From positions 1,116,001 through 1,180,000 of the forward strand of contig NZ_CP162101.1 in assembly GCF_040869035.1 (NCBI RefSeq): a DNA stretch of 64,000 bases. Reading direction: 5' to 3'. This DNA comes from Vibrio sp. NTOU-M3. GTDB lineage: Bacteria; Pseudomonadota; Gammaproteobacteria; Enterobacterales; Vibrionaceae. Below the pieces are notes generated by a model. It was given only the letters and a program-made list of their open reading frames with translations. It was not told the DNA's origin and made no database searches. Within the stretch, counting starts at the first letter, position 1. Each line of letters opens with the position of its first letter. Shown here one piece after another: positions 15,780-44,652 of this stretch. The position numbers and the translations under genes are program-made.

Positions 15780-16167
15780 TGTTTACTTGTATTTCAAAGG
15801 CTTAAAGGTCTTGGGTTTAAGTTCTTTGTCCCTCTGGTAGCTTGTCCCTAGTAGACTCAGCAAATCAATATTGTCGCCCTAAGTTCTTGAATCACTCAGC
15901 CCGTAAAACATTCCAATGTTCGCGGGTTGCTTCATTGTCAGGTCGTGGCGGTTAGCTTCTTGTCTAACTGGCTCAAAGTCGCTTTGAGGCTCTTTGCCAA
16001 TTAGCACTTCAGCTTGGCAGTTGCCTCATTGGGCAGGGAAGTGGAATTAAACGTTTGGGTTGGTCGCTTTTGGTTACCAAGTCGGTTCTGTCCTTGTGGT
16101 TTTGCTCAGAAAATTCGTTAGAAATAGCAGTTCTTTCTCAAGTAAATCATGCGTTTGTGGTAAAACA
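15780..16167 (+). other. ORF-less cassette 8, family A copy 1
   Basis: 388 bp with no credible plus-strand gene. It is homologous along its length to 22758-23217, 39963-40253 and 44193-44652, but shorter through an internal deletion. It carries the palindrome/micro-ORF listed separately. The ends TTATGTTT and AAACATAAC match, so the cassette is intact. Confidence 0.8.
15879..15935 (-). other. Conserved palindrome with minus-strand micro-ORF (family A1)
   Basis: Minus-strand 18-codon frame MKQPANIGMFYGLSDSRT plus stop. A 33-bp imperfect palindrome at 15897-15929 (CAGCCCG...CGGGTTG with inner ACAT/ATGT) lies inside it. No ribosome binding site is visible, so RNA or DNA structure is as likely as a peptide. 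Confidence 0.55.
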
Positions 16168-16287
16168 TAACAAACAATTCAACAGTGATTCGCAACGCTT
16201 GGCACTCTCACTTCGAGTTGAATTTAGTGTTTACGGCGCAGTATTCAAGTTCAGTGTCTGCGCTGCTCACACGTTAATTGGGCGTTA
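16168..16287 (+). repeat. attC 8
   Basis: 120 bp; arms AAACAATTCAAC and GTTAATTGGGCG, a type seen only after family A cassettes. Confidence 0.95.
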
Positions 16288-16313
16288 GGCAATATCTTTG
16301 AAAAGGAGTAGAA

Positions 16314-16700
16314 ATGTCAAAGTGGTATCACGACAAAGAAAAGCTAAAAGATGTTTTTGATGGTATTACAAACTATATACTTTGTGGCGTTGTTTGTTAC
16401 ATAGGCGTTCACGCTATTTTCCAGAAAACCGAAATGTGGTTTCTTAATTACGCATACAATTTTTCTGGTGTGATTTTTATTTTGGCATCTATATATCTTT
16501 TCTATGCAAATACAAGCTATCTAAAGCATAAAGTAATCAAGCTATATGAGTTCGATGGCTGGAAATTTCACGTGGCTAACACATTGTTTTCATTTGTTCT
16601 AATTTTCGGTATTGCAGTCCTATTTAATGAAGCGCTAAAGATTCCTGTAGGTAATGTGCCTCTAGGGGACATTACATTAGTTGAACTATTGAGTGAGTAG
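16314..16700 (+). CDS. Three-helix membrane hypothetical protein (cassette 9)
   Basis: 128 residues with membrane helices at about 20-38, 48-65 and 86-105. Not recognised. AAAAGGAG at 16303-16310 gives a strong ribosome binding site for the ATG. Confidence 0.65.
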   Translation: MSKWYHDKEKLKDVFDGITNYILCGVVCYIGVHAIFQKTEMWFLNYAYNFSGVIFILASIYLFYANTSYLKHKVIKLYEFDGWKFHVANTLFSFVLIFGIAVLFNEALKIPVGNVPLGDITLVELLSE

Positions 16701-16716
16701 AAGGCTAAGTATTGCC

Positions 16717-16839
16717 TAACAAAGCATTTAAGAGTGACTCACAACGCTTGGCGATTTCAGTTTAAACTTGGCTTAAGTGTTTAAGGCGCAGTGGTTTAGG
16801 TTAGGTGTTTAGCGTTGTTCGCACCTTAATGCGGCGTTA
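16717..16839 (+). repeat. attC 9
   Basis: 123 bp; common AAAGCATTTAAG / CTTAATGCGGCG type. Confidence 0.95.
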
Positions 16840-16860
16840 TGTTCTTTAGCTGGAGAATGC

Positions 16861-17208
16861 ATGGAAACAATAAAATTACTTAACTTGGAGTTTTCCACAG
16901 CTGATGCAGAGTACCCAAGTATCCATCAGGAAGAGGGCGACCTTCTAGTCGATTTTAACGATTGGCAAGAGAAAGCGGTCAGGCTTCATTTTTCAGATAT
17001 TGTAGCATTTAAGTGGCAAATGGTATTTGACTTACATGAGGGAGAAAGGGATGACCGTTGTTATGAAATTTGTGGTTCTTCGTGGCTTACAAAGCACGTT
17101 CAGTCAGAAATTATTCATGACCATGAAGGCTACAAGCATTATCGTTTGAATTTTAATGAAGTAGGACAACTTGATGTAATCGCACTAAATCTTCGAGTAC
17201 GAACATAA
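16861..17208 (+). CDS. Hypothetical protein (cassette 10)
   Basis: 115 residues, acidic and soluble, not recognised. The pattern of strands (ETIKLLNLEF, LLVDFNDW, VRLHFSDIVAFKW) suggests a small beta-rich protein of the kind often found as an immunity or binding protein, but this is only an impression. TGGAGAA precedes the ATG and the stop is the TAA of attC 10. Confidence 0.6.
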   Translation: METIKLLNLEFSTADAEYPSIHQEEGDLLVDFNDWQEKAVRLHFSDIVAFKWQMVFDLHEGERDDRCYEICGSSWLTKHVQSEIIHDHEGYKHYRLNFNEVGQLDVIALNLRVRT

Positions 17209-17327
17209 CAAGGCGTTTAAGACGGATTCACAACGCTTGGCGATTTCACTCCCAGTTAGGTTAATTGTTTAAGATACAATGGTTTAGGTTTGGTGGCTGG
17301 CGTTGTTCACCACTTAACGCGGCGTTA
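17206..17327 (+). repeat. attC 10
   Basis: 122 bp; arms AAGGCGTTTAAG and CTTAACGCGGCG. Confidence 0.95.
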
Positions 17328-17345
17328 AGCTTCAATGAGAAAACT

Positions 17346-17903
17346 ATGGATTACGAAGAACTAAAAAAGCAAGGAATCGAGAGTTTTCTTGCCGACGAAG
17401 AACATAATAAAGCCGATAGAATTGAACGTTTTGTTGAGTTAAATGAATTGTTTGGACCACAAGGTGACAAGTTGTTAACCGGTGGTATGCAATCACAACT
17501 TGCGTTGCATGAAGTAGCTAATAGCTATGTCAATGGAAACTACATGGCTGTTGTACTCCTTGCTCAAGCGTTTATCGAGCACTCTCTATCTGGCGAATTC
17601 ATAATGCGAGGTCAAAACACGATTGCAGAATCGTCATTTAAAAAGATTATCGATAACTCGCTGAGCGAGAGCATTATAAGTGAAGAACTTTACGTTTCAC
17701 TGGAAGTACTAAGGAAAATTAGAAATCCGTATGTGCATGCTAAAGCTGGCATCAAATCAGGCTCCCTTATAAAAAAGATGATCGATGGGCGCTTTGAGTC
17801 AGCTGAGCTTTTGGCCAAGTCAGATGCACTAGAATCACTGTCTATCCTTAAAGCCTTTATGGAACAAAAAGTAGTTATGTGGTTCTCTGAAGATGAAGCT
17901 TAA
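17346..17903 (+). CDS. HEPN-like protein with RX4H motif (cassette 11)
   Basis: 185 residues, all helical in appearance. The segment LRKIRNPYVHAKA contains R126-N-P-Y-V-H131, the RX4H motif of HEPN ribonucleases, preceded by a helix with LLAQAFIEHSLSG. HEPN proteins often act as toxins or abortive-infection RNases, and some are inactive partners. The upstream in-frame extension crosses the attC, so I start at the ATG. The stop is the TAA of attC 11. Confidence 0.6.
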   Translation: MDYEELKKQGIESFLADEEHNKADRIERFVELNELFGPQGDKLLTGGMQSQLALHEVANSYVNGNYMAVVLLAQAFIEHSLSGEFIMRGQNTIAESSFKKIIDNSLSESIISEELYVSLEVLRKIRNPYVHAKAGIKSGSLIKKMIDGRFESAELLAKSDALESLSILKAFMEQKVVMWFSEDEA

Positions 17904-18019
17904 CAAGCAATTCAAGCTGATTCGCAACGCTCGGCACTTTCGGCTTCAATTTGTTTTGGTGATTACGGTGAAGTGTTTCAGTGCGGTGGAAGCGTTGCTC
18001 ACAACTTAATTGGGCGTTA
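17901..18019 (+). repeat. attC 11
   Basis: 119 bp; arms AAGCAATTCAAG and CTTAATTGGGCG. Confidence 0.95.
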
Positions 18020-18447
18020 GGCACAGTAAGAAATTTCTTGGTTTATTTCTCTAATTTCTCTTTGGCTATTTGCCCCAGTTTATCGGCAATTTAGCTTTAT
18101 CTTCCCGAGTTCTTGAATTACTCAACCCGTAAAACATCGCAATGTTTACGGGTTGCCTCATTCGGTTTGCTAGTCGGTTTGTTGTTAGTTTCTTTGGCCT
18201 AAATCGCTTCAATTTTATTTGTTTTCGAAATACGTTTATTGGCTGAAACTTTGCTCTGAAAGTTAGTCTTTCTAATTCCCTTTCTATGTGCTGAATTGCC
18301 GCTTTCTTTGGTGTTTTGGTTGCAGTGGGTTTCAGAAACTTAGCCGCTTTAGTCTTTGGGTTTTAATTAAATTCGGTGGGTTACGTGTGTTTCTTTTTCC
18401 AAAAGGTGGTTTTCTAAATCCAATTTTAACTATTTGCGTGAAGCGCC
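18020..18447 (+). other. ORF-less cassette 12, family B copy 1
   Basis: 428 bp with no credible plus-strand gene. Homologous along its length to 29319-29747. Ends TTAGGC and GCCTAAC match, so the cassette is intact. A plus-strand frame at 18288 runs into the attC and is not conserved. Confidence 0.8.
18066..18161 (-). other. Conserved palindrome with minus-strand micro-ORF (family B1)
   Basis: 31-codon minus-strand frame beginning MRQPVNIAMFYGLSNSRT and extended by 13 residues. The embedded palindrome pairs CAACCCGTAA with TTACGGGTTG and ACAT with ATGT, with one bulged A. Confidence 0.55.
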
Positions 18448-18570
18448 TAACAAAGCATTTAAGAGTGACTCACAACGCTTGGCGATCTCAGTTTAAACTT
18501 GGCTTTAGTGTTTAAGGTGCAGTAGTTTAGGTTAGGTGTTTTGCGTTGTTCGCACCTTAATGCGGCGTTA
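18448..18570 (+). repeat. attC 12
   Basis: 123 bp; common type. Confidence 0.95.
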
Positions 18571-18631
18571 GGGCTTTCTCCAAAAAATTCCTTCAAAGCT
18601 ATACTCATGGTGATGAATATAGGAGTTGGTT

Positions 18632-18984
18632 ATGGAAAAGTCAGAAGCACTCAACATTGCACGAAGTAAATTCGGTTTAAATGCGACAAATAGAAATTCT
18701 CATTTTTCTAAGGTGAATGCCAGCAAGGATGTATGGTGGATAGAAGTATCTGTAAAGAAAATTACTGATCTTAATTGTCCTAATCTCTACTTCTTATTGC
18801 AGAAAGGTAGTTCGATTGATGTGTTGGATATACCTACAGAGTTTTTGCGCGAGTCAGCGGATGGTTTCAGAACTAGAACAGACAAAAGAAAAACTGCATG
18901 TGCTTCGAAATTGATATTGTGTCTTATAAAGATGTTGTAGGTCCAAAGAAACTAGATTTGCGCCAGTTTTTAGTTTCACCCTAA
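18632..18984 (+). pseudogene. Hypothetical protein gene with a frameshift (cassette 13)
   Basis: The frame from the ATG at 18632 (MEKSEALNIARSKFG) is good up to about residue 86, then passes an A-run at about 18889-18893 and ends in an unnatural tail at 18940. The next frame continues as CFEIDIVSYKDVVGPKKLD and stops at the TAA of attC 13 (18982-18984), the usual place for a cassette stop. A one-base indel in the A-run therefore explains the gene better than the short version. The family is not recognised. Confidence 0.6.
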
Positions 18985-19101
18985 CAATAAATTTAAGAGT
19001 GATTCACAACGCTCGGCGCTTTCACTTCAAGCCAGTTTAGTGTTTATGGCACAATGCTTTAGCTAAGGTGTTAGCGTTGTTCACACCTTAATTTGGCGTT
19101 A
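18982..19101 (+). repeat. attC 13
   Basis: 120 bp; arms AATAAATTTAAG and CTTAATTTGGCG. Confidence 0.95.
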
Positions 19102-19118
19102 TGTGTAAGGGAATAAAT

Positions 19119-19505
19119 ATGAAAAAACTAATAGCAACAGTTTTAAGCTTCTTAGGAGTGACCTCAGCTAATGCTGAGTATGTGCCTGATTATTCAGCTA
19201 TCGATTCAAGAGAGAAGGCATTGGAATTAGTCCAGAAAGGTGAGTTAGTTGAAACTCTTCTTTTTCCAGCTGAATTAGGCGGGCAAGATGTGCCTCAGAA
19301 CAAAGTATTTGTGCCCGTTGGTGTACCGGAGATTCAAACTCAAATAACAGGGACCATCGTTCGCTTCGCCCAAGATGGATTGATCGATAATATGCAAGTA
19401 GACCCTGAGTATAAAGGGGAGAGTTTTGTGCCTTCCAAGATTAAAATATCTACGTCGCATTCCGGAAAAGATGGAAAGTTCAATCCAGTAATAGAGATTT
19501 GGTAG
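19119..19505 (+). CDS. Secreted hypothetical protein (cassette 14)
   Basis: 128 residues. A clear signal peptide ends ANA before EYVPDYS, so the product is periplasmic or secreted. The mature part is not recognised. I take the ATG at 19119 with AAGGGA upstream instead of the ATG at 19101, which lies on the cassette junction. Confidence 0.65.
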   Translation: MKKLIATVLSFLGVTSANAEYVPDYSAIDSREKALELVQKGELVETLLFPAELGGQDVPQNKVFVPVGVPEIQTQITGTIVRFAQDGLIDNMQVDPEYKGESFVPSKIKISTSHSGKDGKFNPVIEIW

Positions 19506-19528
19506 TTACAGGCAAGCAGATTTACACA

Positions 19529-19619
19529 TAACAAAGCATTTAAGAGTGATTCGCAACGCTTGGCAGTTTCGCTTCGCTCAAGTATAGCCAAGCGCCGCTC
19601 ACACCTTAATGCGGCGTTA
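19529..19619 (+). repeat. attC 14 (short form)
   Basis: 91 bp only. Outer arms are the common AAAGCATTTAAG / CTTAATGCGGCG, but the centre is replaced by a short GCAGTTTCGCTTCGCTCAAG segment, shared with attC 49. Confidence 0.95.
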
Positions 19620-19707
19620 TGTGATTGGTGGACACTTCATACCTATTGGGGCTAAAATGCCCGCTCGCGGCTGCACATGAATTTCAGTCAACTTTAGAGA
19701 AAATACG

Positions 19708-20139
19708 ATGATTGTAGAAAATGTGCTTCCTGAAAATTACGCAGAAATGCTTAGTGTTTGGGAAAATTCAGTCCGAGCAACTCATGACTTCACATCAGAA
19801 GAAGATATTGAGTTTTTTAAACCAATTATCATTGAGCAGGCTTTTCCTGCTGTCACGTTAAGATGTGTGAAAAATGAAAGTGGTTCAATTTTAGGTTTCG
19901 TAGGTATCCACGACTCAAAGGTTGAAATGCTGTTCATCTTAAACGAGGCAAGAGGGCAAGGTGTTGGTAAGGTGCTACTGCAATACGCAATAGAGCAGTT
20001 AGGCGCAACCAAAGTGGATGTAAACGAACAAAACCCGAAAGCCGTAGGTTTCTACGAGCATATGGGTTTTAAAGTAGTTTCTCGCTCACCGCTCGATGAT
20101 ATGGGAAAACCTTTTCCCATTCTGCATATGACACTTTAG
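19708..20139 (+). CDS. GNAT acetyltransferase, YjaB-like (cassette 15)
   Basis: 143 residues. It follows the YjaB layout: VWENSVRATHDF near the N-terminus, the acetyl-CoA loop EARGQGVGKVLL (about 73-84), VNEQNPKAVGFYEHMGF and DDMGKPFPILHM at the end. YjaB-type enzymes acetylate small molecules or proteins; the target is unknown. About 90 bp of leader precedes it. Confidence 0.85.
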   Translation: MIVENVLPENYAEMLSVWENSVRATHDFTSEEDIEFFKPIIIEQAFPAVTLRCVKNESGSILGFVGIHDSKVEMLFILNEARGQGVGKVLLQYAIEQLGATKVDVNEQNPKAVGFYEHMGFKVVSRSPLDDMGKPFPILHMTL

Positions 20140-20225
20140 AGCTCGGTTTGTCGTAACCAGTTTGCTAGAAGAAACGGCCAGAGCTAATAACTTTGGGCGT
20201 TTCCGTATGCAATGAAAAAATCACA

Positions 20226-20345
20226 TAACAATAAATTTAAGAGTGATTCACAACGCTTGGCGCTTTCACTTCAAGCCAGTTTAGTGTTTATGGCACAATG
20301 CTTTAGGTAAGGTGTCCGCGTTGTTCACACCTTAATTTGGCGTTA
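20226..20345 (+). repeat. attC 15
   Basis: 120 bp; arms AATAAATTTAAG and CTTAATTTGGCG. Confidence 0.95.
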
Positions 20346-20844
20346 GTCGCCAGAAAAAGCTAGCAATCAAAATCATGTTTCTAAGCTCAATATTTGGCAA
20401 CTGGTTGTCCGGTTCACAGGTTCATCGACGTTGGTCCAAACTCATTTTCAGCTGTTTTAAGTCCAAATTTTGCAATTGTCCTAGCGTTTTTTTGTTCTTT
20501 GTTGCTGACAGAGCAGGGCAATCGAGTATCTGTTTTTGGTTGCAAATCTGCTCGGTGAGTTTGTTGGTTTAAAAGCTTATTTACTTGCTGAAAGGACGTT
20601 TTCTCTGGTGTGGTAAGTTCCACGTGGTTTCAGTGACTTTGTTGAAAGTCCGCACTGTGAGATTGGTTTTCCAAAAGCGCTTTTTTGGTGTTGTCAGTCC
20701 GTTTTCTGCGGCGTTGGCTGTTCCAAGTGGTTTCATTGAGTAGCCGCTTTGAGACTACGCCTGACTTAAGTGCATCAAAACACATAAAGTTTGTTGTTCG
20801 CAAAGTTTAGTTTGGCTTAAAATTGTCGCTCGGTGCCTCGCGAC
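20346..20844 (+). other. ORF-less cassette 16, family D copy 1
   Basis: 499 bp, homologous over much of its length to 41770-42258. Ends TTAGTCGC and GCGACTAAC match. Both copies share a minus-strand reading ELTTPEKTS...QQT, here at 20414-20623, but frames differ upstream and no ribosome binding site is seen, so coding is doubtful. Confidence 0.7.
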
Positions 20845-20964
20845 TAACAAACTGTTCAAGAGTGATTCGCAACGCGTGGCATTTTTACTATGCGTTGGTT
20901 TTAGTGATTAAGGTGGTATGCGGCGGCTTAGGTATTGCGTTGCTCACACCTTAACAGGGCGTTA
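20845..20964 (+). repeat. attC 16
   Basis: 120 bp; arms AAACTGTTCAAG and CTTAACAGGGCG. Confidence 0.95.
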
Positions 20965-21394
20965 GGCGACGGGCAGAAAAGTTCTTTGTTCTCATCTTCT
21001 TAGTTCTCTTTGAGCATTCGTTTTTCTAAGTCGGCAATTAAGCGTTGTCGGCTCAAATTCTTGAATACCTCCAACCGTAAAACATGCCAAAGTTCGTGGG
21101 TTGCCTCATTCGTTTTTGGTGCTGGTTGGTGGTGAGTTTTACTGGCTCAAAGTGTGGCAAAGGCAAGTTAATCGAGACTCTGGCTTTTGCTGTCATTTCG
21201 TAGCTTTAGGTTTATCAGGTTTAAAAGCTACTTTGTCGCTGAAAGGTCGCATTTCGTGGTTGTTGAAACCTTGGCTGAAACATAGTGAGTTTTGTGGTTC
21301 TTGAATCGCAAAAAGTATGAGTGCATTTGGTTGGTAATAGGGTTTCGGGTAATCTGCTTTCAAAACCACTTAAACACTGGTGGGAAACTTCGCC
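20965..21394 (+). other. ORF-less cassette 17, family C
   Basis: 430 bp, single copy in this window, without a credible gene. It shares the palindrome/micro-ORF core with families A and B but little else. Ends TTAGGCG and CGCCTAAC match. Confidence 0.75.
21053..21109 (-). other. Conserved palindrome with minus-strand micro-ORF (family C)
   Basis: 18-codon minus-strand frame MRQPTNFGMFYGWRYSRI and a stop, the same length as in family A. It has one base less in the CAACCG arm than the others. Confidence 0.5.
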
Positions 21395-21516
21395 TAACAA
21401 GGCGTTTAAGGCGGACTCACAACGCTTTGCGCTCTCAGTTTCAGTTGAATTTAGTGTTTAAGGTGCAATGGTTTAGGTTTGGTGGTTGGCGTTGTTCACC
21501 ACTTAACGCGGCGTTA
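21395..21516 (+). repeat. attC 17
   Basis: 122 bp; arms AAGGCGTTTAAG and CTTAACGCGGCG. Confidence 0.95.
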
Positions 21517-22639: not shown

Positions 22640-22757
22640 CAAAGCGTTTAAGACAGATTCGCAACGCTTGGCATTTTTGGTTTGATTCGGCTCTAGTGTT
22701 TACGGCACAATGTTTTAGGTGTGGTGGTGGCGTTGCTCACTACTTAACGCGGCGTTA
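22637..22757 (+). repeat. attC 19
   Basis: 121 bp; arms AAAGCGTTTAAG and CTTAACGCGGCG. Confidence 0.95.
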
Positions 22758-23217
22758 TGTTTACTTGTATTTCAAAGGCTTAAAGGTCTTAGGCTCTAGT
22801 TCTTTGTCCCTCTGGTAATTCGTCCCTAGTAGACTCAGCAAATCGGTATTGTCGGTCTAAGTTCTTGAACCACTCAGCCCGTAAAACATGCCAATGCTCG
22901 TGGGTTGCTTCATTGTCAGGTCGTGGCGGTCGGTTGTTTGTGTAACTGGCTTAAAGTCGCTTTGGGATTCTTAGCCAATCAGCATTTCGGCTTGGCAGTA
23001 GCCTCGGCAATTTGCCATTGTATTACGCTTTGGTTGGAAAGAAAGGGTGCTTGTTGTTTGTTGGTCGGGTTGCCTCATTGGGCAGGGAAGTGGAATTACA
23101 CGTTTTCGGTTGGTCGCCTTTGGCGGCCAAGTTGGTTTCAGCCTTGTGGTCTAGCTCAGAAAACTAGTCAGTAATTGCAGTTCTTTCTCATGTAAATCAG
23201 TCGTTTGTGGTAAAACA
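22758..23217 (+). other. ORF-less cassette 20, family A copy 2
   Basis: 460 bp, closest in length to 44193-44652. A plus-strand frame from a TTG at 22905 is partly shared with that copy but is broken in 15780-16167, so I do not call a gene. Ends match (TTATGTTT / AAACATAAC). Confidence 0.8.
22857..22913 (-). other. Conserved palindrome with minus-strand micro-ORF (family A2)
   Basis: 18-codon frame MKQPTSIGMFYGLSGSRT plus stop on the minus strand. Confidence 0.55.
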
Positions 23218-23337
23218 TAACAAACAATTCAACAGTGATTCGCAACGCTTGGCGCTCTCACTTCGGGTTGAGTCTAGTGTTTACGGCGCAGTTTGTGGGT
23301 TCAGTGCTTGCGTTGCTCACACGTTAATTGGGCGTTA
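23218..23337 (+). repeat. attC 20
   Basis: 120 bp; arms AAACAATTCAAC and GTTAATTGGGCG, family A type. Confidence 0.95.
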
Positions 23338-24058: not shown

Positions 24059-24952
24059 CTAGGTAGGGGAAAAGTTTCTGATATCAGAGACTATTTTTTG
24101 ATACAAAGGATTATCGGGAATGATGCGCAGAGCTACCGCTGTTTCAAGGTCAAGGATGTTTTTACGACATTGCGAAATAAGGTTTTCTTTCTTGTCCCCT
24201 TCATGATGATCTTTAATATCGTCAATTACAGGTCTAACGAGTTGAATGAGCGCCCTGTTTGCAACTCGTTTCATTTGAGACTCAAAGTTATGACCTCTAT
24301 AAAATAGGAACATATTTTCCGGAGTCAAGCCTATCTCTTCAGCTTTGGAAAGTGCCTCTACTGGTGGCTCAGGTGTTGGAGTTTCTTCCTCCTTAACTCC
24401 TTCGTATTTTAAATTGAGAACAAGCTTTTTAATGGAGTTCCTATCGCCATTATGGAGGTGGGTTAAGAAAGCGTTAAAGTACTTTGTTGACCAATCATTA
24501 ACTAATTGCTCCAAATCTGGAATGGCGTCTTTTGAGTAGTGTCCTGCAATATTGCAGCATAGGCTCGATAGATTACATGGGTGGAAGTGGAAATTTTCGA
24601 TCGAGTATGCATACGTTTGGAAGCAGAAGTTACTATTTAGTATATCTTGATTATTGTCCGTAAAGTTATCATAGTCACTATCTATACATACCAAGTTGTA
24701 TGCACCTAGTGTTATTTTTCCTTCTTTCAAAAGACTAATTATTGTATCTTTCCCATTGGCTTTTGCTTCAACGCCTACGGCATCAATGTTGAAAGTCCCG
24801 AACCCATTCTCCGAAAGTAATTTCCCCCAAAAGCGCTTGTCGTCAAAACCCTCTACGAACACTTTAATCGTAGGAGTCTCCCCAAATTCTTCGTACGCTT
24901 CTTCTAGTGCATCATCTTCATCGAAGTCTGAGCCACCGATATTGATATTCAC
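24059..24952 (-). CDS. DUF4435 (Toprim-like) protein, PARIS AriB-like (cassette 22)
   Basis: 297 residues. The N-terminal part has the DUF4435/Toprim pattern: IKVFVEGFDDKRFWGKLL with the conserved acidic E..DD near residue 34, and LVCIDSDYDNF near residue 89. In PARIS the DUF4435 protein AriB is the effector released by the AriA ATPase. The gene starts with GTG overlapping the ATPase stop (TAGTG), so the two are translationally coupled. Both genes run against the array, and the cassette is intact. Residue-level similarity to known AriB was not tested. Confidence 0.7.
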   Translation of the reverse strand: MNINIGGSDFDEDDALEEAYEEFGETPTIKVFVEGFDDKRFWGKLLSENGFGTFNIDAVGVEAKANGKDTIISLLKEGKITLGAYNLVCIDSDYDNFTDNNQDILNSNFCFQTYAYSIENFHFHPCNLSSLCCNIAGHYSKDAIPDLEQLVNDWSTKYFNAFLTHLHNGDRNSIKKLVLNLKYEGVKEEETPTPEPPVEALSKAEEIGLTPENMFLFYRGHNFESQMKRVANRALIQLVRPVIDDIKDHHEGDKKENLISQCRKNILDLETAVALRIIPDNPLYQKIVSDIRNFSPT

Positions 24953-26058
24953 TAAACGCCAACCTCAATACATTTACTTCTCCAGTTTTCTTTCACCAGA
25001 GTAGGAGAGTGGGTTGCAATAATAAATTGATTATCTGGAGCAATGCTCACCAAATCTTTAATCAAGCGTTTCTGCCATCTAACGTGCAATGCGATTTCAG
25101 GTTCATCCAAAATGAAAACTCTGACTTTATCTCGATAATAATATGTCGAAAATAAGAGGTATATTATTGTTTTTTCACCTCTAGATAATAAGTTCCAGTG
25201 GATTGGTTCGGCGTTATCGATGTTTGCTAGTGTGAACTTGTTTTGTTCATCTCTTACAAGGTACTTGTTACTGTCCTCAAAGTAGGAGTTTAGTAGGTCT
25301 ACAATAGATTCGATGTCTTGACTTCTCTGTGTTGCATACTGATATTCTGCTGAAGAAGCTAGTTTTTCAAATTGTCCGTTAGCATCCCTAACTTCTTTCG
25401 CTACTACTTTATCTAAATGAGACTCAAGTACTTGCATGAAATCACGGCAATAGGAGAATCGCTCATCGATTGAACTTTTGTAAAGGCTCCAATAGCTACC
25501 TGTAAACTCTACGCTAGCATTATCCATATTGTGCATGCTCATTCGGTCTTCTTGAAACAAGAAGCCCAAAGGTGCTTTTGTTAACTTGTCTCTAAGTTCT
25601 TCCGAATTGAGTTGTTCTGGAATTTCTAATTGCTTGCGCCAACGTTCGCCTTTTTCATTGTTGGTATAGCTAACATAGCTTCGAGAAAAATCTTTACTAT
25701 GTTCATTATAGAGGTTTTGTAAGTAGTTCAGGAATTCATAGTTATGAGTGTCTTCTTGATTATCAAGCAAGTCCATAACTCTATCATCGAATTCTTTATC
25801 ATCGAATGACGCTGGTATAAGTAGCGTACTCATCGTGATTTCATTAGAAAACGTTAGCTTTGATGACCAGTAGCGGTTTTTAGATGTCGATGGTTTTCTA
25901 CTCTTGGTAGCAGTATTCAAGCTATCAAATATTATGTTTAATAGTGAGCTTTTTCCTGAGCCGTTTACACCTGTAAGCAAGGTAACGTCGTCATAGAATG
26001 GGACGGTTATACGCTCTTTGCCCCATAAGTTCACAATTTCCAATTCTGATAAATGCAC
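24952..26058 (-). CDS. AAA/ABC-type ATPase, PARIS AriA-like (cassette 22)
   Basis: 368 residues. RecF/OLD-like ATPase with Walker A GVNGSGKSS near residue 30, a signature motif LSRGEKT near residue 292, Walker B VFILDEPE and the switch histidine IATHSP. It is followed by a DUF4435 gene, the AriA-AriB arrangement of PARIS, which senses phage anti-restriction proteins. A GTG start has AGGA about 8 bp upstream. The gene needs its own promoter because it opposes the array; a candidate lies at 26083-26112. Confidence 0.72.
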   Translation of the reverse strand: MHLSELEIVNLWGKERITVPFYDDVTLLTGVNGSGKSSLLNIIFDSLNTATKSRKPSTSKNRYWSSKLTFSNEITMSTLLIPASFDDKEFDDRVMDLLDNQEDTHNYEFLNYLQNLYNEHSKDFSRSYVSYTNNEKGERWRKQLEIPEQLNSEELRDKLTKAPLGFLFQEDRMSMHNMDNASVEFTGSYWSLYKSSIDERFSYCRDFMQVLESHLDKVVAKEVRDANGQFEKLASSAEYQYATQRSQDIESIVDLLNSYFEDSNKYLVRDEQNKFTLANIDNAEPIHWNLLSRGEKTIIYLLFSTYYYRDKVRVFILDEPEIALHVRWQKRLIKDLVSIAPDNQFIIATHSPTLVKENWRSKCIEVGV

Positions 26059-29198: not shown

Positions 29199-29318
29199 CA
29201 AAGCATTTAAGAGTGACTCACAACGTTTGGCGATCTCGGTTTAAACTTGGCTTTAGTGTTTAAGGTGCAATGGTTTAGGTTAGGTGATTAGCGTTGTTCG
29301 CACCTTAATGCGGCGTTA
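29196..29318 (+). repeat. attC 27
   Basis: 123 bp; common type. Confidence 0.95.
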
Positions 29319-29747
29319 GGCGCAGTAAGAAATTTCTTGGTTCAAATCTCTAATTTCTCTTTAACCATTTGTTCTAGCTTTTCGGCAATTTAGCTTTGTT
29401 TTCCCAAGTTCTTGAATCACTCAACCCGTAAAGCATGTCAAGGTTTGCGGGTTGCCTCATTAGGTTTAGTCACTGGTTTGTTATCAGTTTCTTTGGCTCA
29501 AGTCGCTTCAATTTTATCTGTCTTCGAAACGTATTTATTGACTGAAACTTTGCTCTGAAAGGTAACCTTTTCAAATTTCATTTTTATGCGCTGATTTGCC
29601 AATTTCTTTGGTGTTTTGGTTGCAGTGGGTTCCAGAAATTTAGCCGCTTTAGCATTTGGGTTTTAATCAAATTTAATGGGCTACGTGTGTTTCTTTTTCT
29701 AAAAGGTGGTTTTCTAAATCCAGTTTTAACTATTTGCGTGAAGCGCC
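29319..29747 (+). other. ORF-less cassette 28, family B copy 2
   Basis: 429 bp, homologous to 18020-18447 throughout. Ends TTAGGCGC and GCGCCTAAC match. Confidence 0.8.
29374..29460 (-). other. Conserved palindrome with minus-strand micro-ORF (family B2)
   Basis: 28-codon minus-strand frame beginning MRQPANLDMLYGLSDSRT, then WENKAKLPKS; the extension parallels family B1 (REDKAKLP). Confidence 0.55.
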
Positions 29748-29871
29748 TAACAAAGCATTTAAGAGTGACTCACAACGCTTGGCGATCTCAGTTTAAACTT
29801 GGTTTTAGTGTTTAAGGTGCGGTGGTTTAGGTTAGGTGTTTTAGCGTTGTTCGCACCTTAATGCGGCGTTA
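29748..29871 (+). repeat. attC 28
   Basis: 124 bp; common type. Confidence 0.95.
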
Positions 29872-38140: not shown

Positions 38141-38148
38141 TAATCGCC

Positions 38149-38715: not shown

Positions 38716-38732
38716 TGTACTAAGGAGGCAGG

Positions 38733-39113
38733 ATGCCAAAAAAATATTCCGGTTCATGTCACTGTGGTCTCATTAAATTCGAAGTTTTAGCCGATATTGA
38801 TCATCTTCGAGAGTGTAATTGCTCCATCTGTATCCGCAGAGGTGCGCTAAATTTTAGAGTGCCAGAAGAGAATTTGACGGTTCTAACTCCCCTCCAAAAT
38901 GCAGTTTTATACAAATGGGGCAGCGAAACCGCAGAAGACTACTTTTGCCCTAAATGCGGTATTCTGCCATTTCGTAAACCTAGTCAATTAACCAAAGCTG
39001 AAATCGAGGCTGGCAAAGTCCCATTTACTGGTTGGGCTGTAAATGCTCGTTGTCTTAATGGGCTAAATATCGGTGAAATTCCGGTCTTAAAAATAGATGG
39101 AGCATCCCTTTGA
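38733..39113 (+). CDS. GFA (CENP-V/GFA) domain zinc protein (cassette 41)
   Basis: 126 residues. Zinc-ligand pattern GSCHCG, ECNCSIC and YFCPKCG as in glutathione-dependent formaldehyde-activating (GFA-like) proteins; most members have no proven activity. A second, different GFA gene lies at 53401. AAGGAGGC precedes the ATG. Confidence 0.85.
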   Translation: MPKKYSGSCHCGLIKFEVLADIDHLRECNCSICIRRGALNFRVPEENLTVLTPLQNAVLYKWGSETAEDYFCPKCGILPFRKPSQLTKAEIEAGKVPFTGWAVNARCLNGLNIGEIPVLKIDGASL

Positions 39114-39122
39114 GCACGTACA

Positions 39123-39244
39123 TAACAAATCGCTTAACAGGGACTCCTAACGCTTGGCGACTTCAGTCGCAGTTTTAGCTCCGCGTTTAAGGCACAATAT
39201 TCAAGTTGGGTGGTTTAGCGTTATCGCCCGTTAGCAAGGCGTTA
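39123..39244 (+). repeat. attC 41
   Basis: 122 bp; arms AAATCGCTTAAC and GTTAGCAAGGCG. Confidence 0.93.
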
Positions 39245-39275
39245 TGTGCCCGAGTGCTGCTGTTCGACTATGAAG

Positions 39276-39306
39276 CCTCTCTACCAGTTTTATGAAGGTA
39301 GAGAGG
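39276..39306 (-). terminator. Hairpin after the minus-strand gene of cassette 42
   Basis: CCTCTCTACC and GGTAGAGAGG form a perfect 10-bp stem with an 11-nt loop, 23 bp past the stop at 39329. Confidence 0.65.
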
Positions 39307-39328
39307 TTTGAGCTTTTTCTGCTGAACT

Positions 39329-39784
39329 CTATTTAATTAGTGCCATCTTTGAGCCGTAGTGTTCTGCTAATTGTTCAAAACTCATATTCTTAAACTTACT
39401 ATCTTTGTCGTTTCGAAAAGTCTTATCCGTACGTTTTAAAGGTATCCTATCCCATTTCAATGTATTTCCATTAATAGATATGTTGGTCACCCAACATTCG
39501 TTTTTGGGAGAATAGTAGCTACAAATTAGAGCTTGCGCTGAATTATTCCCTTTCATTACGTAGGGGACAAACCCGCTCTCCGATGGCTTGTCCTTGTAAA
39601 CAACACCATCATTAGTATATGAGCCTGGATATCGAACAAAGTTGGCTACTCCAGGCCTTGGGAAAGTAATAAAAATGCGTTCACTGCTTCCGTCATACAC
39701 GTAACTCCCTTCCAACTGTTTGGCGAATGTAGAAGCTGATAAAATTAGGCTAAGAGCCAGAAAAAGTAGACTTAAACACTTCAT
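39329..39784 (-). CDS. Secreted hypothetical protein (cassette 42)
   Basis: 151 residues. Signal peptide ending TFA before KQLEGSY; the mature part has strands (SYVYDGSSERIFITF, CWVTNISINGNTLKW) and two cysteines, suggesting a periplasmic beta protein. Not recognised. It is antisense to the array and has its own terminator, so it is probably an autonomous transcription unit. Confidence 0.65.
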   Translation of the reverse strand: MKCLSLLFLALSLILSASTFAKQLEGSYVYDGSSERIFITFPRPGVANFVRYPGSYTNDGVVYKDKPSESGFVPYVMKGNNSAQALICSYYSPKNECWVTNISINGNTLKWDRIPLKRTDKTFRNDKDSKFKNMSFEQLAEHYGSKMALIK

Positions 39785-39844
39785 TTTATTTCCCTATACA
39801 AATACAAAGTATAGTTGGGTTTTGTTGCTTATCAATAAGGCACA

Positions 39845-39962
39845 TAACAAGCAATTCAAGCTGATTCGCAACGCTCGGCGCTTTCGGTTTCAACTTGTTT
39901 GGTGATTACGGTTCAGTGTTTTAGTAAGGTGGGAGCGTTGCTCACAACTTAATTGGGCGTTA
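39845..39962 (+). repeat. attC 42
   Basis: 118 bp; arms AAGCAATTCAAG and CTTAATTGGGCG. Confidence 0.95.
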
Positions 39963-40253
39963 TGTTTACTTGTATTTTAAAGGCTTAAATGTCTTGGGCT
40001 CTAGTTCTTTGTCCCTCTGGCAATTCGTCCCTAGTAGACTCAGCAAATTAGTATTATCGGTCTAAGTTCTTGAATCTCTTAGGCCGTAAAACATGCCAAT
40101 ATTCGCGGGTTGCTTCATTATCAGGTCGTGGCGGTTGGCTTCTTGTTTAACTGGCTTAAAGTCGCTTTTAGGTTCTTAGCCAATTAGCATTTCGGCTTGG
40201 CAGTTGCCTCGGTAATTTGCCATTGTTTTACGCTTTGGTTGGAAAGATAGGGC
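39963..40253 (+). other. Truncated family A cassette (A3) fused to a toxin-antitoxin cassette
   Basis: 291 bp matching the first part of the family A cassettes. The match stops at GGAAAGATAGGGCG, where the other copies continue with GCTCG or TGCTTG; here the sequence passes straight into GTTAGTTTGC, the start of the next cassette. No attC separates them. Confidence 0.75.
40062..40118 (-). other. Conserved palindrome with minus-strand micro-ORF (family A3)
   Basis: 18-codon frame MKQPANIGMFYGLRDSRT plus stop, retained in the truncated copy. Confidence 0.55.
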
Positions 40254-40310
40254 GTTAGTTTGCATGGATACACTCTCACCCCAGTTATTATTTCTAGGGT
40301 GAAAGTCGTG

Positions 40311-40610
40311 TTATTTCAGATGATTCTGGGGTAGCTGTGATTGACCTAAGACAGCAACGACTAATATAAAGTCATCTTCTTTGGTGAAATAAGCTGTGTG
40401 TTTTCCAATCGGGAAATAAAAGCCATTTGGGTATAGCTCGTGACAGCTTCTTCCTAAACCTGGATTATCAGCTAGCATCTGAAACCCTGATAGCAAAGTG
40501 CCTTTATAGTTGCGCCACTGTAATTCAGAAAAGTTTTCAACAGTGTAGTTTTTGACTTTGCGCAAGTGGGATTGCGCTAAGTTACTTAGCTTGTATTTAT
40601 TCTTTTGCAT
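40311..40610 (-). CDS. ParE/RelE superfamily toxin (cassette 43)
   Basis: 99 residues. LSNLAQSHLRKVKNYT at the N-terminus, then ML.DNPGLGRSCHEL and YFPIGKHTAYFTKEDDFILVVAVL, the ParE-like fold order. ParE toxins inhibit gyrase and RelE ones cut mRNA; which applies is not clear. It follows its antitoxin gene by 7 bp. Confidence 0.8.
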   Translation of the reverse strand: MQKNKYKLSNLAQSHLRKVKNYTVENFSELQWRNYKGTLLSGFQMLADNPGLGRSCHELYPNGFYFPIGKHTAYFTKEDDFILVVAVLGQSQLPQNHLK

Positions 40611-40617
40611 AAGTTAG

Positions 40618-40860
40618 TTACAGCGAATTTATAAAGCTTTCGCCGTCAACAGTGTTTCCATTGTTCAAGTCTTCTTTAGCTGACTTAAAGCAGTGTTTGA
40701 GGTACTCAACTTTCATAGCTTCTAGCTCTTCAAAGTCACGAATGGACATGACAACGACAGTATCTTTACTGTTTTTGCTGATTTTTACTGGCTCGCGTTG
40801 TGCGCTTAGAAGTAGTTCGCCGAAATTTCGTTTGGCATCATTGGCTGTTAATGTATGCAT
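40618..40860 (-). CDS. Phd/YefM-type antitoxin (cassette 43)
   Basis: 80 residues. N-terminal TANDAKRNFGELLLSAQREPVKISKN and VVVMSIRDFEELE fit the Phd/YefM DNA-binding domain; the C-terminus would wrap the toxin. Such antitoxins repress their own promoter. A strong promoter lies just upstream (40890-40917). Confidence 0.82.
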   Translation of the reverse strand: MHTLTANDAKRNFGELLLSAQREPVKISKNSKDTVVVMSIRDFEELEAMKVEYLKHCFKSAKEDLNNGNTVDGESFINSL

Positions 40861-40889
40861 GGTCAGTTCCCAATTGAGTGTACAGTTAG

Positions 40890-40917
40890 ATTATAATGCA
40901 TCGCATGAAATGTTCAA
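40890..40917 (-). promoter_or_regulatory. Promoter of the antisense toxin-antitoxin pair
   Basis: On the minus strand TTGAAC, a 16-bp spacer and a perfect TATAAT, about 30 bp before the antitoxin ATG. Confidence 0.75.
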
Positions 40918-40953
40918 TTTAATTAAATCGTGCGATTTGTGCGAAATGCAAAC

Positions 40954-41073
40954 TAACAAACTGCTCAAGAGGGATTCGCAACGCGTGGCATTTTTACTAT
41001 GCGTTGAATTTAGTGATTAAGGTGGTATGCGGCGGCTTCGGTATTGCGTTGCTCACCCCTTAGCAGGGCGTTA
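40954..41073 (+). repeat. attC 43
   Basis: 120 bp; arms AAACTGCTCAAG and CTTAGCAGGGCG. GCAAACTAAC here matches GTTAGTTTGC at 40254, defining the toxin-antitoxin cassette. Confidence 0.95.
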
Positions 41074-41192
41074 TGTGCAAATTCCCCAAGAGTTTCTGTA
41101 TAGGTAACAGTCATTTATCTCAGCTTTAGTTGCCTTCGTGCATATACAGTTGTACTTTCAAGTGATCAGAACTTGAGAGCAATCACTTAGCT

Positions 41193-41639
41193 ATGAAAAG
41201 GAAAAAACTCAAAACAGTAGATGTGTTGATTGACGAATATTTAACTTGTGCTAAGTCAGTCAACGAGGCTAATTTTCGACTAATTCAATCTAAAAGCGGT
41301 TTCAGAAATAGGAAGATTAAGCTCAGTATCGAAAAGGCTCTCATAGAGTATGAAAACTTTATCGCGGTGCTTGAGGAGTTAGAGCCGTCTTTTATCGGTG
41401 ACTTAGAGATCTATTACCATACTGACATTGCTCATTTGGGGATAAAACAAGTTAATCAAGACGCAGCGGCACGAGCGAGAACCGTTTTTCTTGATAGTCT
41501 ACAGCGTTTTAACAGCACGATATGCACAAAAGAAGAGAGCATTAATTTCAACCAAACGACTAATTTGGCAAGGCTAAGTATCCTGATTGCTGCTCTTTCA
41601 TTTGTGATTAGTTTTGGTTACTCAATACTAGTGACTTAA
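41193..41639 (+). CDS. Tail-anchored hypothetical protein (cassette 44)
   Basis: 148 residues, helical, with a C-terminal membrane helix (about 126-146, LSILIAALSFVISFGYS). Not recognised. About 120 bp of leader separate it from the cassette junction and may contain a promoter. Confidence 0.6.
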   Translation: MKRKKLKTVDVLIDEYLTCAKSVNEANFRLIQSKSGFRNRKIKLSIEKALIEYENFIAVLEELEPSFIGDLEIYYHTDIAHLGIKQVNQDAAARARTVFLDSLQRFNSTICTKEESINFNQTTNLARLSILIAALSFVISFGYSILVT

Positions 41640-41649
41640 AATTTACACA

Positions 41650-41769
41650 TAACAATCTGTTTAAGAGTGATTCGCAACGCGTGGCATTTTTACTATGCGT
41701 TGCGTTTAGTGTTGAAGGTGGTATGCGGCGGCATCGGTATTGCGTTGCTCACACCTTAACAGGGCGTTA
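41650..41769 (+). repeat. attC 44
   Basis: 120 bp; arms AATCTGTTTAAG and CTTAACAGGGCG. Confidence 0.95.
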
Positions 41770-42258
41770 GTTTGCAAGAGGAAAAACGTAACTATATCGC
41801 AAGATCTAGTGGTAAAAGCTTAAAGTCGAAACAGTCATATCGGCACTCATTTCAGTGTTAACTTGCGTGGTGTAAACCCAAAATTAGCATCGTTTCAAAG
41901 GTTGATTTGTTCTTTGGTGCGGCGACTTTTGGGTTAACTGAGTCGAACTTTTTTGCTGAAACTCTGCTCGTTGAGTTTGTTGGTACAAAAGCCGATTTAC
42001 TCGCTGCGAGGACGTTTTCTCTGGTGTGGTAAGTTCATGTAGTTTCAGTGGCTTTGTTGAAAGTCCGCATTGTGAGATTGGTTTTCCAAAAGCGCTTTTT
42101 GGTGTTGTGAGTTCGTTTTCTGCGGCGTTGTTTGTTCTCCGTGGTTTCATTGACTAGCCGTTTTTAGACTACGCCTGACTTAAGTGCATCAAAACACATA
42201 AAGTTTATTGTTTGCAAAGCTTAAAGTGACTTAAAATCAACGCTTTGGGTTTGCAAAC
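41770..42258 (+). other. ORF-less cassette 45, family D copy 2
   Basis: 489 bp, homologous to 20346-20844. An 88-codon minus-strand frame (41884-42150) shares ELTTPEKTS with copy 1 but is P/T/Q-rich, lacks a ribosome binding site and is shifted upstream in copy 1. Ends TTAGTTTGC and GCAAACTAAC match. Confidence 0.7.
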
Positions 42259-42378
42259 TAACAAACTGCTCAAGAGGGATTCGCAACGCGTGGCATTTTT
42301 ACTATGCGTTGAATTTAGTGATTAAGGTGGTTTGCGGCGGCTTTTTTATTGCGTTGCTCACCCCTTAGCAGGGCGTTA
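42259..42378 (+). repeat. attC 45
   Basis: 120 bp; arms AAACTGCTCAAG and CTTAGCAGGGCG. Confidence 0.95.
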
Positions 42379-42401
42379 GCCGACAACCGGAGACTTGAGT
42401 T

Positions 42402-42887
42402 ATGGAGAGCAAAGTGAACGTAAGGAAAGCGATCAAGGAAGACTCCAGTAAGTTGCTAGAACTTATTGGACACAAAGCTGAGTTTGACCGAAGTATGAAA
42501 GGATTCGACGGTGAAATCTCCACGACGAAAGAAAAGATAGAACGAACCTTATTTGGTGACTATCCGTTTGCCCACGCTTTGCTATTGGAAGTCGATGGTG
42601 AAGTTCAGGGTTTCGCCTTGTTTCATTATCGTTATTCATCCTTTCGCGGTGAACCGTCTATTTGGCTTGATGATCTTCTAGTTGTTAGTAATCATCGGTC
42701 AAAGGGACACGGTGCAGAACTTATGCATGCTTTGAAAACGGAAGCTCAAAAGTCGTTAACTTCTCATATTTCTTGGACAGCTAGTCCACATAACACCAAA
42801 GCACACGAGTTTTACAAAAAGTTAGGCGCAGAAGTTGAACGGATGGATGGTCAGCGTCCGTATTTCCGTTGGGCAATGTACGGCTAA
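42402..42887 (+). CDS. GNAT acetyltransferase, SAT1-like, copy 2 (cassette 46)
   Basis: 161 residues, near-identical to the gene at 13314 including the 20 bp before the start. The acetyl-CoA loop reads VVSNHRSKGHGAELM. The copy has a normal, self-complementary attC, whereas copy 1 has a chimeric one, so this copy is closer to the ancestral cassette. The stop is the TAA of attC 46. Confidence 0.85.
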   Translation: MESKVNVRKAIKEDSSKLLELIGHKAEFDRSMKGFDGEISTTKEKIERTLFGDYPFAHALLLEVDGEVQGFALFHYRYSSFRGEPSIWLDDLLVVSNHRSKGHGAELMHALKTEAQKSLTSHISWTASPHNTKAHEFYKKLGAEVERMDGQRPYFRWAMYG

Positions 42888-43004
42888 CAATAAATTTAAG
42901 AGTGATTCACAACGCTTGGCGCTTTCACTTCAAGTCAGCGTAGTGTTTAAGGCACAATGGTTTAGCTAGGGTGTTAGCGTTGTTCACACCTTAATTTGGC
43001 GTTA
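42885..43004 (+). repeat. attC 46
   Basis: 120 bp; arms AATAAATTTAAG and CTTAATTTGGCG. Confidence 0.95.
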
Positions 43005-43062
43005 GTAATCAACGTGCATATTGTTCAGGCATTCGGTAAAATGACGTTTTAAACCAAAAGCG

Positions 43063-44064
43063 ATGATTATCGTGAATAAGCTAAACAACATGCAAGATGC
43101 TCAAAATGAGCCTTTTGAAGAATCTCCTAAACCAAATAGCGAGGCAACAGTCGAAACTGAAGTTGATACCGAGCTAAATGACACTCAAGAAGCAAAGAAA
43201 AAGTTCAGGTTTGCTAGCGTCAAAATTCAAAGGTCTAAAGACTGGAATAAGAAGTCTTTCAAACAGATACGAAAAGATGTACACAAACAGTTTGTTGAGG
43301 CTGGAATCGATGAAGTTCCCGACGAAATCGTAGATAAGTTCGTTGATGAAATCACGGAAGATGTGATTAAAAAGAAGTATCGACAGAATGTTTTTTCAGC
43401 ATTACGCATAGCCTTAGCACTAACTTTAGTAACTTTTGTTGTCTTGGTTACATCTTTACTTATTGATGTTAGTGGAAAGTACGTTGGTAAAACTGAAATT
43501 GCGTCTTCCATGACTAACACAATTAATAAAGACGTATCTTTGGATGATATAAAGATGGTTTATGCTAAAGAGCGCAGCGTAACAGTAGATAACTTTTGGC
43601 CAGTGTTTAAGCCTCATTTGTACTATGAGAAAACAGACCTTACCTTGCATAAGGTTTTGCAAGACATCAAAGCTGAGCTCTTGACTAAAGATGATAGCCT
43701 TACAAGTGAGGAGTTGACTTTCCTTGATAAATTAAATGGTTTGTTATCCGAGTATAACAAAGTCAACCCCTTTGATGGGCTTGATGAGCAAGACTTAAGA
43801 GATTTCAAAGGGCTTTCCATCAAGTTAGATAGTACTTCTTACCAAAAAGTTGAAGATGAGATACTAAGCCTTACATCCTCGATGAAACTAAAAAATAGCT
43901 TAATCCATCAGTATTTGAGTAGTAGTAATACCTCTCTCTATATATCAATTGCAGCTTTTGTTTTTTCGGTAATCATCAGCATTTGGCAACTTTTATCATC
44001 ACGTAAATCAAGTCAAAAACAATTGATCTATGAAGCAATGAAAGAACACGGCCTTGCAAAGTAA
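43063..44064 (+). CDS. Large two-helix membrane hypothetical protein (cassette 47)
   Basis: 333 residues. Acidic disordered N-terminus (about 1-45), then a charged helical part, a membrane helix at about 112-132, a long soluble helical region, and a second helix at about 287-310 before a short basic tail. Not recognised; no enzymatic motif. GTG 43072 and ATG 43090 are alternative starts. Confidence 0.6.
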   Translation: MIIVNKLNNMQDAQNEPFEESPKPNSEATVETEVDTELNDTQEAKKKFRFASVKIQRSKDWNKKSFKQIRKDVHKQFVEAGIDEVPDEIVDKFVDEITEDVIKKKYRQNVFSALRIALALTLVTFVVLVTSLLIDVSGKYVGKTEIASSMTNTINKDVSLDDIKMVYAKERSVTVDNFWPVFKPHLYYEKTDLTLHKVLQDIKAELLTKDDSLTSEELTFLDKLNGLLSEYNKVNPFDGLDEQDLRDFKGLSIKLDSTSYQKVEDEILSLTSSMKLKNSLIHQYLSSSNTSLYISIAAFVFSVIISIWQLLSSRKSSQKQLIYEAMKEHGLAK

Positions 44065-44072
44065 CTGATTAC

Positions 44073-44192
44073 TAACAATCTGTTTAAGAGTGATTCGCAA
44101 CGCTTGGCATTTTTGCTATGCGTTGCGTTTTGTGTTTAAGGTGGTATGCGGGAGCTTCGGCATAGCGTTGCTCACACCTTAACAGGGCGTTA
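44073..44192 (+). repeat. attC 47
   Basis: 120 bp; arms AATCTGTTTAAG and CTTAACAGGGCG. Confidence 0.95.
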
Positions 44193-44652
44193 TGTTTACT
44201 TGTATTTCAAAGGCTTAAATGTCTTAGGCTCTAGTTCTTTGCCCCTCTGGCAGTTCGTCCCTAGTAGACTCAGCAAATCCGCATTGTCGGTCTAAGTTCT
44301 TGAATCTCTCAGCCCGTAAAACATGCCAATGTTCGTGGGTTGCTTCATTGTCAGGTCGTAACGGTTGGCTTCTTGTTTAACTGGCTCAAAGTTGCTTTTA
44401 GGTTCTTAGTCAATTGGCATTTTAGCTTGGCAGTTGCCTCGGCAACCTATCATTGTCTTGCGCTTTGGTTGGAAAGAAAGGGCGCTCGTTGTTTCTTGAT
44501 CGGGTTGCCTCATTGGGCAGGGAAGTGGACTTGCTTGTTTTAGGTTGGTCGCCTTTGGTGGTCAAGCTTGTTTCTGCCTTGTGCTTTAGTTCAGAAAACT
44601 AGTTAAAATCAGCAGTTCTTTGTCAAGTAAATCATGTGTTTGTGGTAAAACA
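44193..44652 (+). other. ORF-less cassette 48, family A copy 4
   Basis: 460 bp, full-length family A member. Ends TTATGTTT and AAACATAAC match. Confidence 0.8.
44292..44348 (-). other. Conserved palindrome with minus-strand micro-ORF (family A4)
   Basis: 18-codon frame MKQPTNIGMFYGLRDSRT plus stop; palindrome arms CAGCCCG and TGGGTTG with inner ACAT/ATGT. Confidence 0.55.

Follow-up and report, generated by a model that had tools for sequence, protein, structure and literature searches.

Non-coding cassettes with many paralogs have been described in the integron arrays of Vibrio species, and selfish, promoter, or RNA roles have been proposed for them (Boucher 2006; PMC1382264). According to the accessible text of that report, such cassettes lack both an open reading frame (ORF) longer than 150 bp and a protein match, and two V. 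vulnificus strains carry 45 and 34 copies of one family. Expression of non-coding cassettes has also been detected (Michael and Labbate 2010, in its accessible text; PMC2945992). A more recent study, in the portions available, does not exclude small ORFs and small RNAs in gene-less cassettes and shows that in silico promoter prediction fails (Blanco 2024; PMC11014356). The present analysis concerns a conserved two-part element, TC[R]GCAA-N57-67-TTGC[Y]TCA, that spans ~77 nt near the 5′ end of cassettes in the integron array of Vibrio sp. NTOU-M3. The stretch analyzed, referred to here as the window, comprises 64,000 nt (contig NZ_CP162101.1, positions 1,116,001 to 1,180,000), and coordinates are window positions unless a genome is named. 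The element is a real, ancient, and base-paired feature that marks gene-less cassettes across the Vibrionaceae. The pairing of its two arms is moderately supported, and we infer that it operates at the level of RNA.

Cassettes carrying this element resemble those of Boucher 2006 (PMC1382264), as far as the text of that report is available, in mostly appearing gene-less, in having many paralogs per array, in showing whole-length similarity between species, and in being restricted to vibrios. The NTOU-M3 array alone holds 17 cassettes with at least one unit of the element, 139 whole cassettes could be aligned, and a single true unit outside the Vibrionaceae was found among 360 genomes of the order. 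The accessible text of Boucher 2006 differs in that it names no conserved element, base pairing, or feature joining unlike families. With the promoter cassettes of Blanco 2024 (PMC11014356, accessible text) there is a shared lack of genes, a shared array type, and one size class (491-666 bp there, and 508-580 bp for six of the seven core-bearing cassettes in the window). However, those promoter cassettes were defined by measured sense promoter activity, and the available main text of that study contains neither "palindrom" nor "hairpin". The attC site is likewise an inverted, base-paired, strand-specific feature of cassettes. The unit differs in its location within the cassette, away from attC, in its lack of recognizable R or L boxes, and in the 57-67 nt loop that it encloses. 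No description of the element was found in literature titles and abstract openings, a search whose scope excluded subscription journals and supplements.

An earlier sequence-only reading of the window had described seven gene-less cassettes of three families (four A, two B, and one C) that share a core, which was seen as a 33-bp imperfect palindrome on the plus strand and as a micro-ORF on the minus strand. The core is indeed present on the plus strand in all seven cassettes: a degenerate pattern allowing up to 3 mismatches gave these 7 matches, none elsewhere in the window, and 0 in 100 shuffled sequences. Six of these cassettes look gene-less, as described, with longest frames of 42-89 codons when TTG and GTG starts are allowed (more than 50 codons in three), but the core at 40062 sits in a cassette with genes for a ParE toxin and a Phd/YefM antitoxin. 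The flanks had been thought unrelated between families, a view contradicted by 139 whole cassettes that align end to end with a mean identity of 65%. These were obtained from 172 unique core copies (one chance core match, at locus L026, was excluded), of which 139 gave distinct cassettes of 480-620 bp. Judged from these sequences, A, B, and C form a single superfamily of cassettes. In 162 of the 168 copies for which a junction was found, the distance from cassette start to core is 106-121 nt, and the cassette is 540-583 bp long in 131 of the 155 cases with both ends.

The suggestion that the core is selected is supported, in that its divergence is only ~0.43-0.62 times the rate of the cassette body and, outside attC, it is the most conserved stretch of the 139 aligned cassettes. 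Divergence of the core tracks that of the body (r 0.74), and divergence of attC is nearly unrelated to that of the body (r 0.11), as if attC sites had been homogenized within each host. What appears to be under selection is the two-part element of ~77 nt rather than the micro-ORF or the 33-bp palindrome.

The left arm TC[R]GCAA and the right arm TTGC[Y]TCA would pair over 5 bp, closing a loop of about 60 nt whose sequence depends on the class of unit, and this model is moderately supported. An alignment extended to distant copies (239 copies, 79 of them distant, in 219 aligned columns) has its best conserved 5-column windows in CGGCAA and TTGCCTCA, and 11 of the 14 columns with the highest conservation fall in the arms and their flanks. 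The arms form the sole 5-bp helix with at least 90% pairing in this alignment. Pair 1 is G-C in 134 copies, A-T in 104, and A-C in 1, and it is the top covarying pair of the 219 columns, with an E value of 0.07 derived from a tree-based null (our own implementation, in the manner of R-scape). The attC site served as the positive control for covariation. Across the whole cassette, four pairs had E <0.05, of which the three complementary ones all lie in attC.

Larger samples yield the same pattern. An arm-only search of 1.09 Mb, with the variable base left free, found 245 G..C and 114 A..T units, 241 and 114 of them at a spacing of 57-67 nt; at this spacing just 2 non-complementary arm pairs were encountered, such that 355 of 357 are complementary. 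In a set of 1.50 Mb that overlaps the first, with the variable base of each arm free, 420 of 426 units have complementary arms. Because the search pattern fixes most other arm bases, these counts test pair 1. When all arm bases were left free in 1670 cassette heads, GGTAA/TTACC was found twice, once in a class I unit (locus L081) and once in a class III unit (L265). These are taken as independent double changes of pair 3 from C-G to T-A. Compensatory changes, a criterion for structured RNA, are therefore seen with moderate strength at pair 1 (G-C/A-T) and twice at pair 3. The structured-RNA option that had been raised for the core thus fails in its palindromic form and survives as pairing between arms 57-67 nt apart, the left of which lies outside the core as originally drawn.

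Units fall into six classes (I to VI) whose interiors are unalignable by eye, and k-mer clustering of the units separated just two groups. The spacing between arms is 63 nt in class I, 59 in class II (the second unit of A cassettes), 61 in class III, 64-65 in class IV (which has two units per cassette), 61 in class V, and 62 in class VI. Because this spacing is class-specific (59, 61, 63, 64-66 nt), and shows no helical phasing, pairing is a better explanation than helically phased protein sites. A box resembling CTTTGGCCATTCGTTT is located 6-9 nt upstream of 52 of 105 representative units, and such a box occurs anywhere within 60 nt of 56 of these 105, compared with 2 of 105 when shuffled. 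Where A cassettes have two units, these are 169 nt apart. The corresponding distance is 167 nt in a cassette from genome G092, whose attC sites we take to be of the V. cholerae repeat (VCR) type and which is presumably V. cholerae or a close relative.

The minus-strand frames exist as reported (18 codons for families A and C, 31 codons for B1 at 18126, and 28 codons for B2 at 29425), and a micropeptide M[KR]QPxNxxMFYGLxxSRT could be argued from the presence of ATG in 168 of 172 close copies and of the 18-codon frame in 119 of 172. Nevertheless, a leaderless peptide from this frame is very improbable, since the signature of coding is absent. The entropies of the three codon positions are 0.44/0.40/0.48, without a clear third-position excess (166 of 172 copies), and a frame test with column shuffles gave z 0.67 in the ATG frame and no value >1 in any other. 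The integron integrase, used as a coding control, passed with z >2 in 17 of 17 windows of 18 codons and a mean of 7.9 (20 integrase genes from 22 loci sought; the number of shuffles differed between the two runs, 60 and 40). Four parts of the cassette, among them its core, mid, and far parts, had no frame with z >1 when 20 of the 30 representatives were tested, and the longest stop-free run is 83.9 codons versus 89.3 in a Markov null. Among the distant copies (82 scored of 89), the ATG is missing from 45 (41 of which read TTG instead, a codon that could also serve as a start), is present without an in-frame MFYG in 34, and is accompanied by it in 3. A protein query against plasmids returned five weak Vibrio matches, and a longer form of 50 amino acids matched 13 proteins, none with a Pfam domain. 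The apparent start, ATG-A[A/G]G-CAA, is simply the conserved right arm TTGC[T/C]TCAT in reverse complement, and the alternation of K and R at codon 2 is the covarying base pair 1 of the arms. The palindrome fares no better as a hairpin. It is near-perfect in B1 and only there; in a set of 30 diverse copies, 80.0% of cells are paired over its 14 pairs, as are 80.0% in shuffled sequences, one pair is unpaired in 28 of the 30, and the covariation score is 0.119 versus 0.121 when shuffled.

The element extends far beyond this array. In the NTOU-M3 genome itself, the pattern recovers 15 core copies and blastn recovers 16 that are near full-length, all sharing a single replicon and strand. They follow downstream of a minus-strand integron integrase gene (G000:C2:1072337-1073284), so that the core has the orientation of transcription from the cassette promoter (Pc). 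The core pattern is present in 60 of 227 Vibrio genomes, with up to 41 copies each, and the named core loci represent 23 species of Vibrio, unnamed species included. A model built from sequence only matched 69 of the 227 Vibrio genomes and, at the level of the family, 82 of 329 genomes of the Vibrionaceae, distributed over 3 of 13 genera. The two-arm pattern TCGGCAA-N55-68-TTGCCTCA occurs in 94 of the 227 Vibrio genomes, with 105 matches in G153, 62 in G222, and 47 in G033. At least two matches are present in 56 Vibrio genomes, compared to 15 genomes with one match each, and none with more, for a reversed control; there are also 38 single matches, some of which are chance occurrences in coding-like sequence. 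Across the order, the arm pattern matches 63 of 394 genomes, 11 of these Vibrionaceae. Outside the family, 52 of 360 genomes match once or twice, and 17 have matches to the reversed control. By eye, the matches outside the Vibrionaceae are unlike sequences, except for a complete class I cassette in genome G590. This cassette resides on a 3.5-kb contig with Vibrio-like attC sites, and therefore points to transfer or contamination.

The position and company of the units were evaluated in 586 cassettes, which were parsed from the NTOU-M3 array together with eleven further stretches belonging to eight genomes. For nine of these twelve stretches, the median distance between the upstream attC junction and the start of unit 1 is 62-78 nt; it is 122-123 nt in G228 and 251 nt for the single G295 cassette. 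An ORF of 80 codons is absent from 84 of 112 unit-bearing cassettes versus 116 of 474 others (p 5e-23). Within the NTOU-M3 array, for which 115 cassettes were parsed, 11 of the 17 unit-bearing cassettes lack such an ORF, and T is enriched on the sense strand of the unit-bearing bodies (AT skew -0.275 versus -0.004 in the rest). Orientation is uniform, with 134 units sense and 0 antisense in the fetched stretches of seven arrays.

The reading favored here, with confidence that stops just short of even, is that the element works as base-paired RNA in the sense transcripts of the array. Transcripts initiated at Pc, in upstream cassettes, or at internal promoters would carry the element as RNA. 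More loosely, it might act in cis on the transcription, processing, or stability of the array transcript, and the conserved unpaired UC and UCA beside the helix might serve as a protein contact. A broader and distinctly more tentative proposal is that the gene-less cassettes are RNA-gene cassettes, each with one or two modules of a single ancient family of ~77-nt RNAs that control the array's own transcript. On the same tentative terms, these modules would share a closing helix and nearly the same place while differing in their interiors, and they would rank among the most abundant "genes" of Vibrionaceae superintegrons. The strand bias of potential pairs beyond the five is consistent with RNA. 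Pairs 6-8 can form on the plus strand at frequencies of 0.58, 0.75, and 0.78 versus 0.40 expected from composition, largely via G.U, and on the minus strand at 0.25, 0.22, and 0.46 versus 0.34, with no excess over the three together.

A number of observations weigh against a base-paired RNA. Pair 1 changed jointly once on the tree and its E value of 0.07 misses 0.05, and because of that single joint change its covariation alone is just suggestive. The scan of cassette heads with free arms found 7 fully paired non-canonical arm pairs versus 2.8 expected (P 0.022), and the five other than the two GGTAA/TTACC cases look unrelated to units. Pairs past the fifth show no covariation beyond marginals. 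Folding energies are mildly low, with mean z values on the plus strand of -1.08 and -0.70 versus -0.15 for control windows, and on the minus strand of -0.96 (in the class I group, nearly as low as on the plus strand) and -0.30. Exceptions of the G.U and A.C types number 9 versus 10 cells over the five pairs of 342 units, which does not distinguish the strands. RNAalifold windows over the core were not significant and those over attC were, and Rfam gave 0 matches at the gathering score in the window and four further loci, as well as 0 when the cutoff was relaxed to E 1 for four loci and one cassette of the window. Furthermore, the start site of V. cholerae cassette C5 is given at position 359, which would be downstream of both units if C5 belongs to the family (accessible text of Blanco 2024; PMC11014356).

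Some additional candidates were dropped. A second inner helix, GCGC/GCGC, in classes II-V shows variants that, by eye, change one side only, and a covariation run gave no pair with E <1. Local RNA folds of the core or the whole cassette yielded no significant windows save attC, and boxA- or ops-like antitermination motifs were not conserved by eye. ARAGORN made 0 tRNA detections in the window.

Similar data could be produced by a site that functions in DNA. In one such account, which is less probable but deserves consideration, the arms are inverted protein half-sites in the promoter region of gene-less "promoter cassettes". Most gene-less Vibrio cassettes assayed by Blanco 2024 (PMC11014356, accessible text) have sense promoter activity, a homodimer would also give joint changes of half-sites, and weak folding support suits a DNA site. 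This must be set against a class-dependent spacing of 59-66 nt, a range that covers two thirds of a helical turn, conserved arm flanks that are asymmetric (TC versus TCA), and start sites that the same study, in its available text, mapped away from the cassette 5′ end. An unlikely alternative account invokes a single-stranded DNA hairpin or selfish feature that aids cassette excision, copying, or insertion, which would explain a high copy number without a gene. The 105 units in one genome, mostly with no gene, would then be expected, as would the preferred distance of unit 1 from the upstream attC junction, and base pairing is equally compatible with single-stranded DNA. A 5-bp helix with a loop of ~60 nt would, however, probably be weak as a DNA hairpin. 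Moreover, the excess at pairs 6-8 occurs on the plus strand only and is largely G.U, whereas integron cassette recombination uses the bottom strand.

A trans-acting small RNA encoded by the cassette is more doubtful still. The module is compact, conserved, multicopy, and mostly without an ORF, as might be expected of a small RNA gene. Yet deletion of the entire V. cholerae superintegron left the remaining transcriptome "fundamentally unaltered, with few exceptions" (PMC11551772, accessible text), and the targets would thus lie in the array or need other conditions. This outcome favors an array-internal role for the element. Supposed minimal cassettes of 300 bp, consisting of the element and attC (loci L208, L213, and L224), proved to be a parsing error, with no attC start there but just a chance GCGTTA.

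All units in the window are on the plus strand. The A1 cassette (~15779-16286) has unit 1 at 15857-15934, with AGCAA at 15859-15863 and TTGCT at 15927-15931 (spacing 63). The B1 (18083-18160, cassette ~18019-18569), C1 (21031-21108, cassette ~20964-21515), and B2 (29382-29459, cassette ~29318-29870) units each have GGCAA/TTGCC at a spacing of 63. Two units are present in A2 (~22757-23336) and A4 (~44192-44771), where unit 1 (22835-22912 and 44270-44347, respectively) has AGCAA/TTGCT and a spacing of 63, and unit 2 (23004-23077 and 44439-44512), which the sequence-only reading had overlooked in both, has GGCAA/TTGCC and a spacing of 59. A1 is 72 bp shorter than its sisters, and the gap falls where the others have the stretch between two TTGCCTC-like repeats. 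Given this location, its second unit appears to have been lost, perhaps via recombination between the repeats. Unit 1 of A3 (40040-40117, AGCAA/TTGCT, spacing 63) belongs to the cassette that carries genes (~39962-41072), namely a ParE-type toxin gene (40311-40610, minus strand; Pfam PF05016, E 8.3e-15) and a Phd/YefM-type antitoxin gene (40618-40860, minus strand; Pfam PF02604, E 1.6e-10). Here, the first half of an A cassette is seemingly fused, within its second unit, to a toxin-antitoxin cassette. The fusion point, GGGCG/TTAG, mimics an attC R′ box, as if the 3′ half of the A cassette and its attC had been deleted.

Other parts of the array were also observed. A 619-bp and a 552-bp cassette adjoin in two parts of the array in opposite order (near 20344-21515 and G000:C2 1081242-1082412), which suggests duplication or shuffling, as judged by length and ORF length only. 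Another repeated cassette family, without a unit or a convincing gene, is found at 20344-20962 and 41760-42250. A further cassette encodes an AriA-like AAA ATPase and an AriB-like DUF4435 protein (24059-26058, minus strand; PADLOC AriA E 2e-39, AriB E 2e-18), which we take to be the two parts of the PARIS anti-phage system. A helicase-like protein is encoded at 61438-63348 on the minus strand, and matches the DpdF and BrxH models.

One lesson to be drawn from these cassettes is that a "micro-ORF" can look conserved just because a nucleic-acid element occupies the same bases. The finding of a short, exact element that unites unlike families also makes the question posed by Boucher 2006 (PMC1382264), whether such cassettes are selfish, promoter, or RNA entities, testable, as it specifies the bases to break and the swaps that should rescue. 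If the element does function as RNA, then RNA genes or RNA regulators would make up a considerable fraction of some of the largest cassette arrays known.

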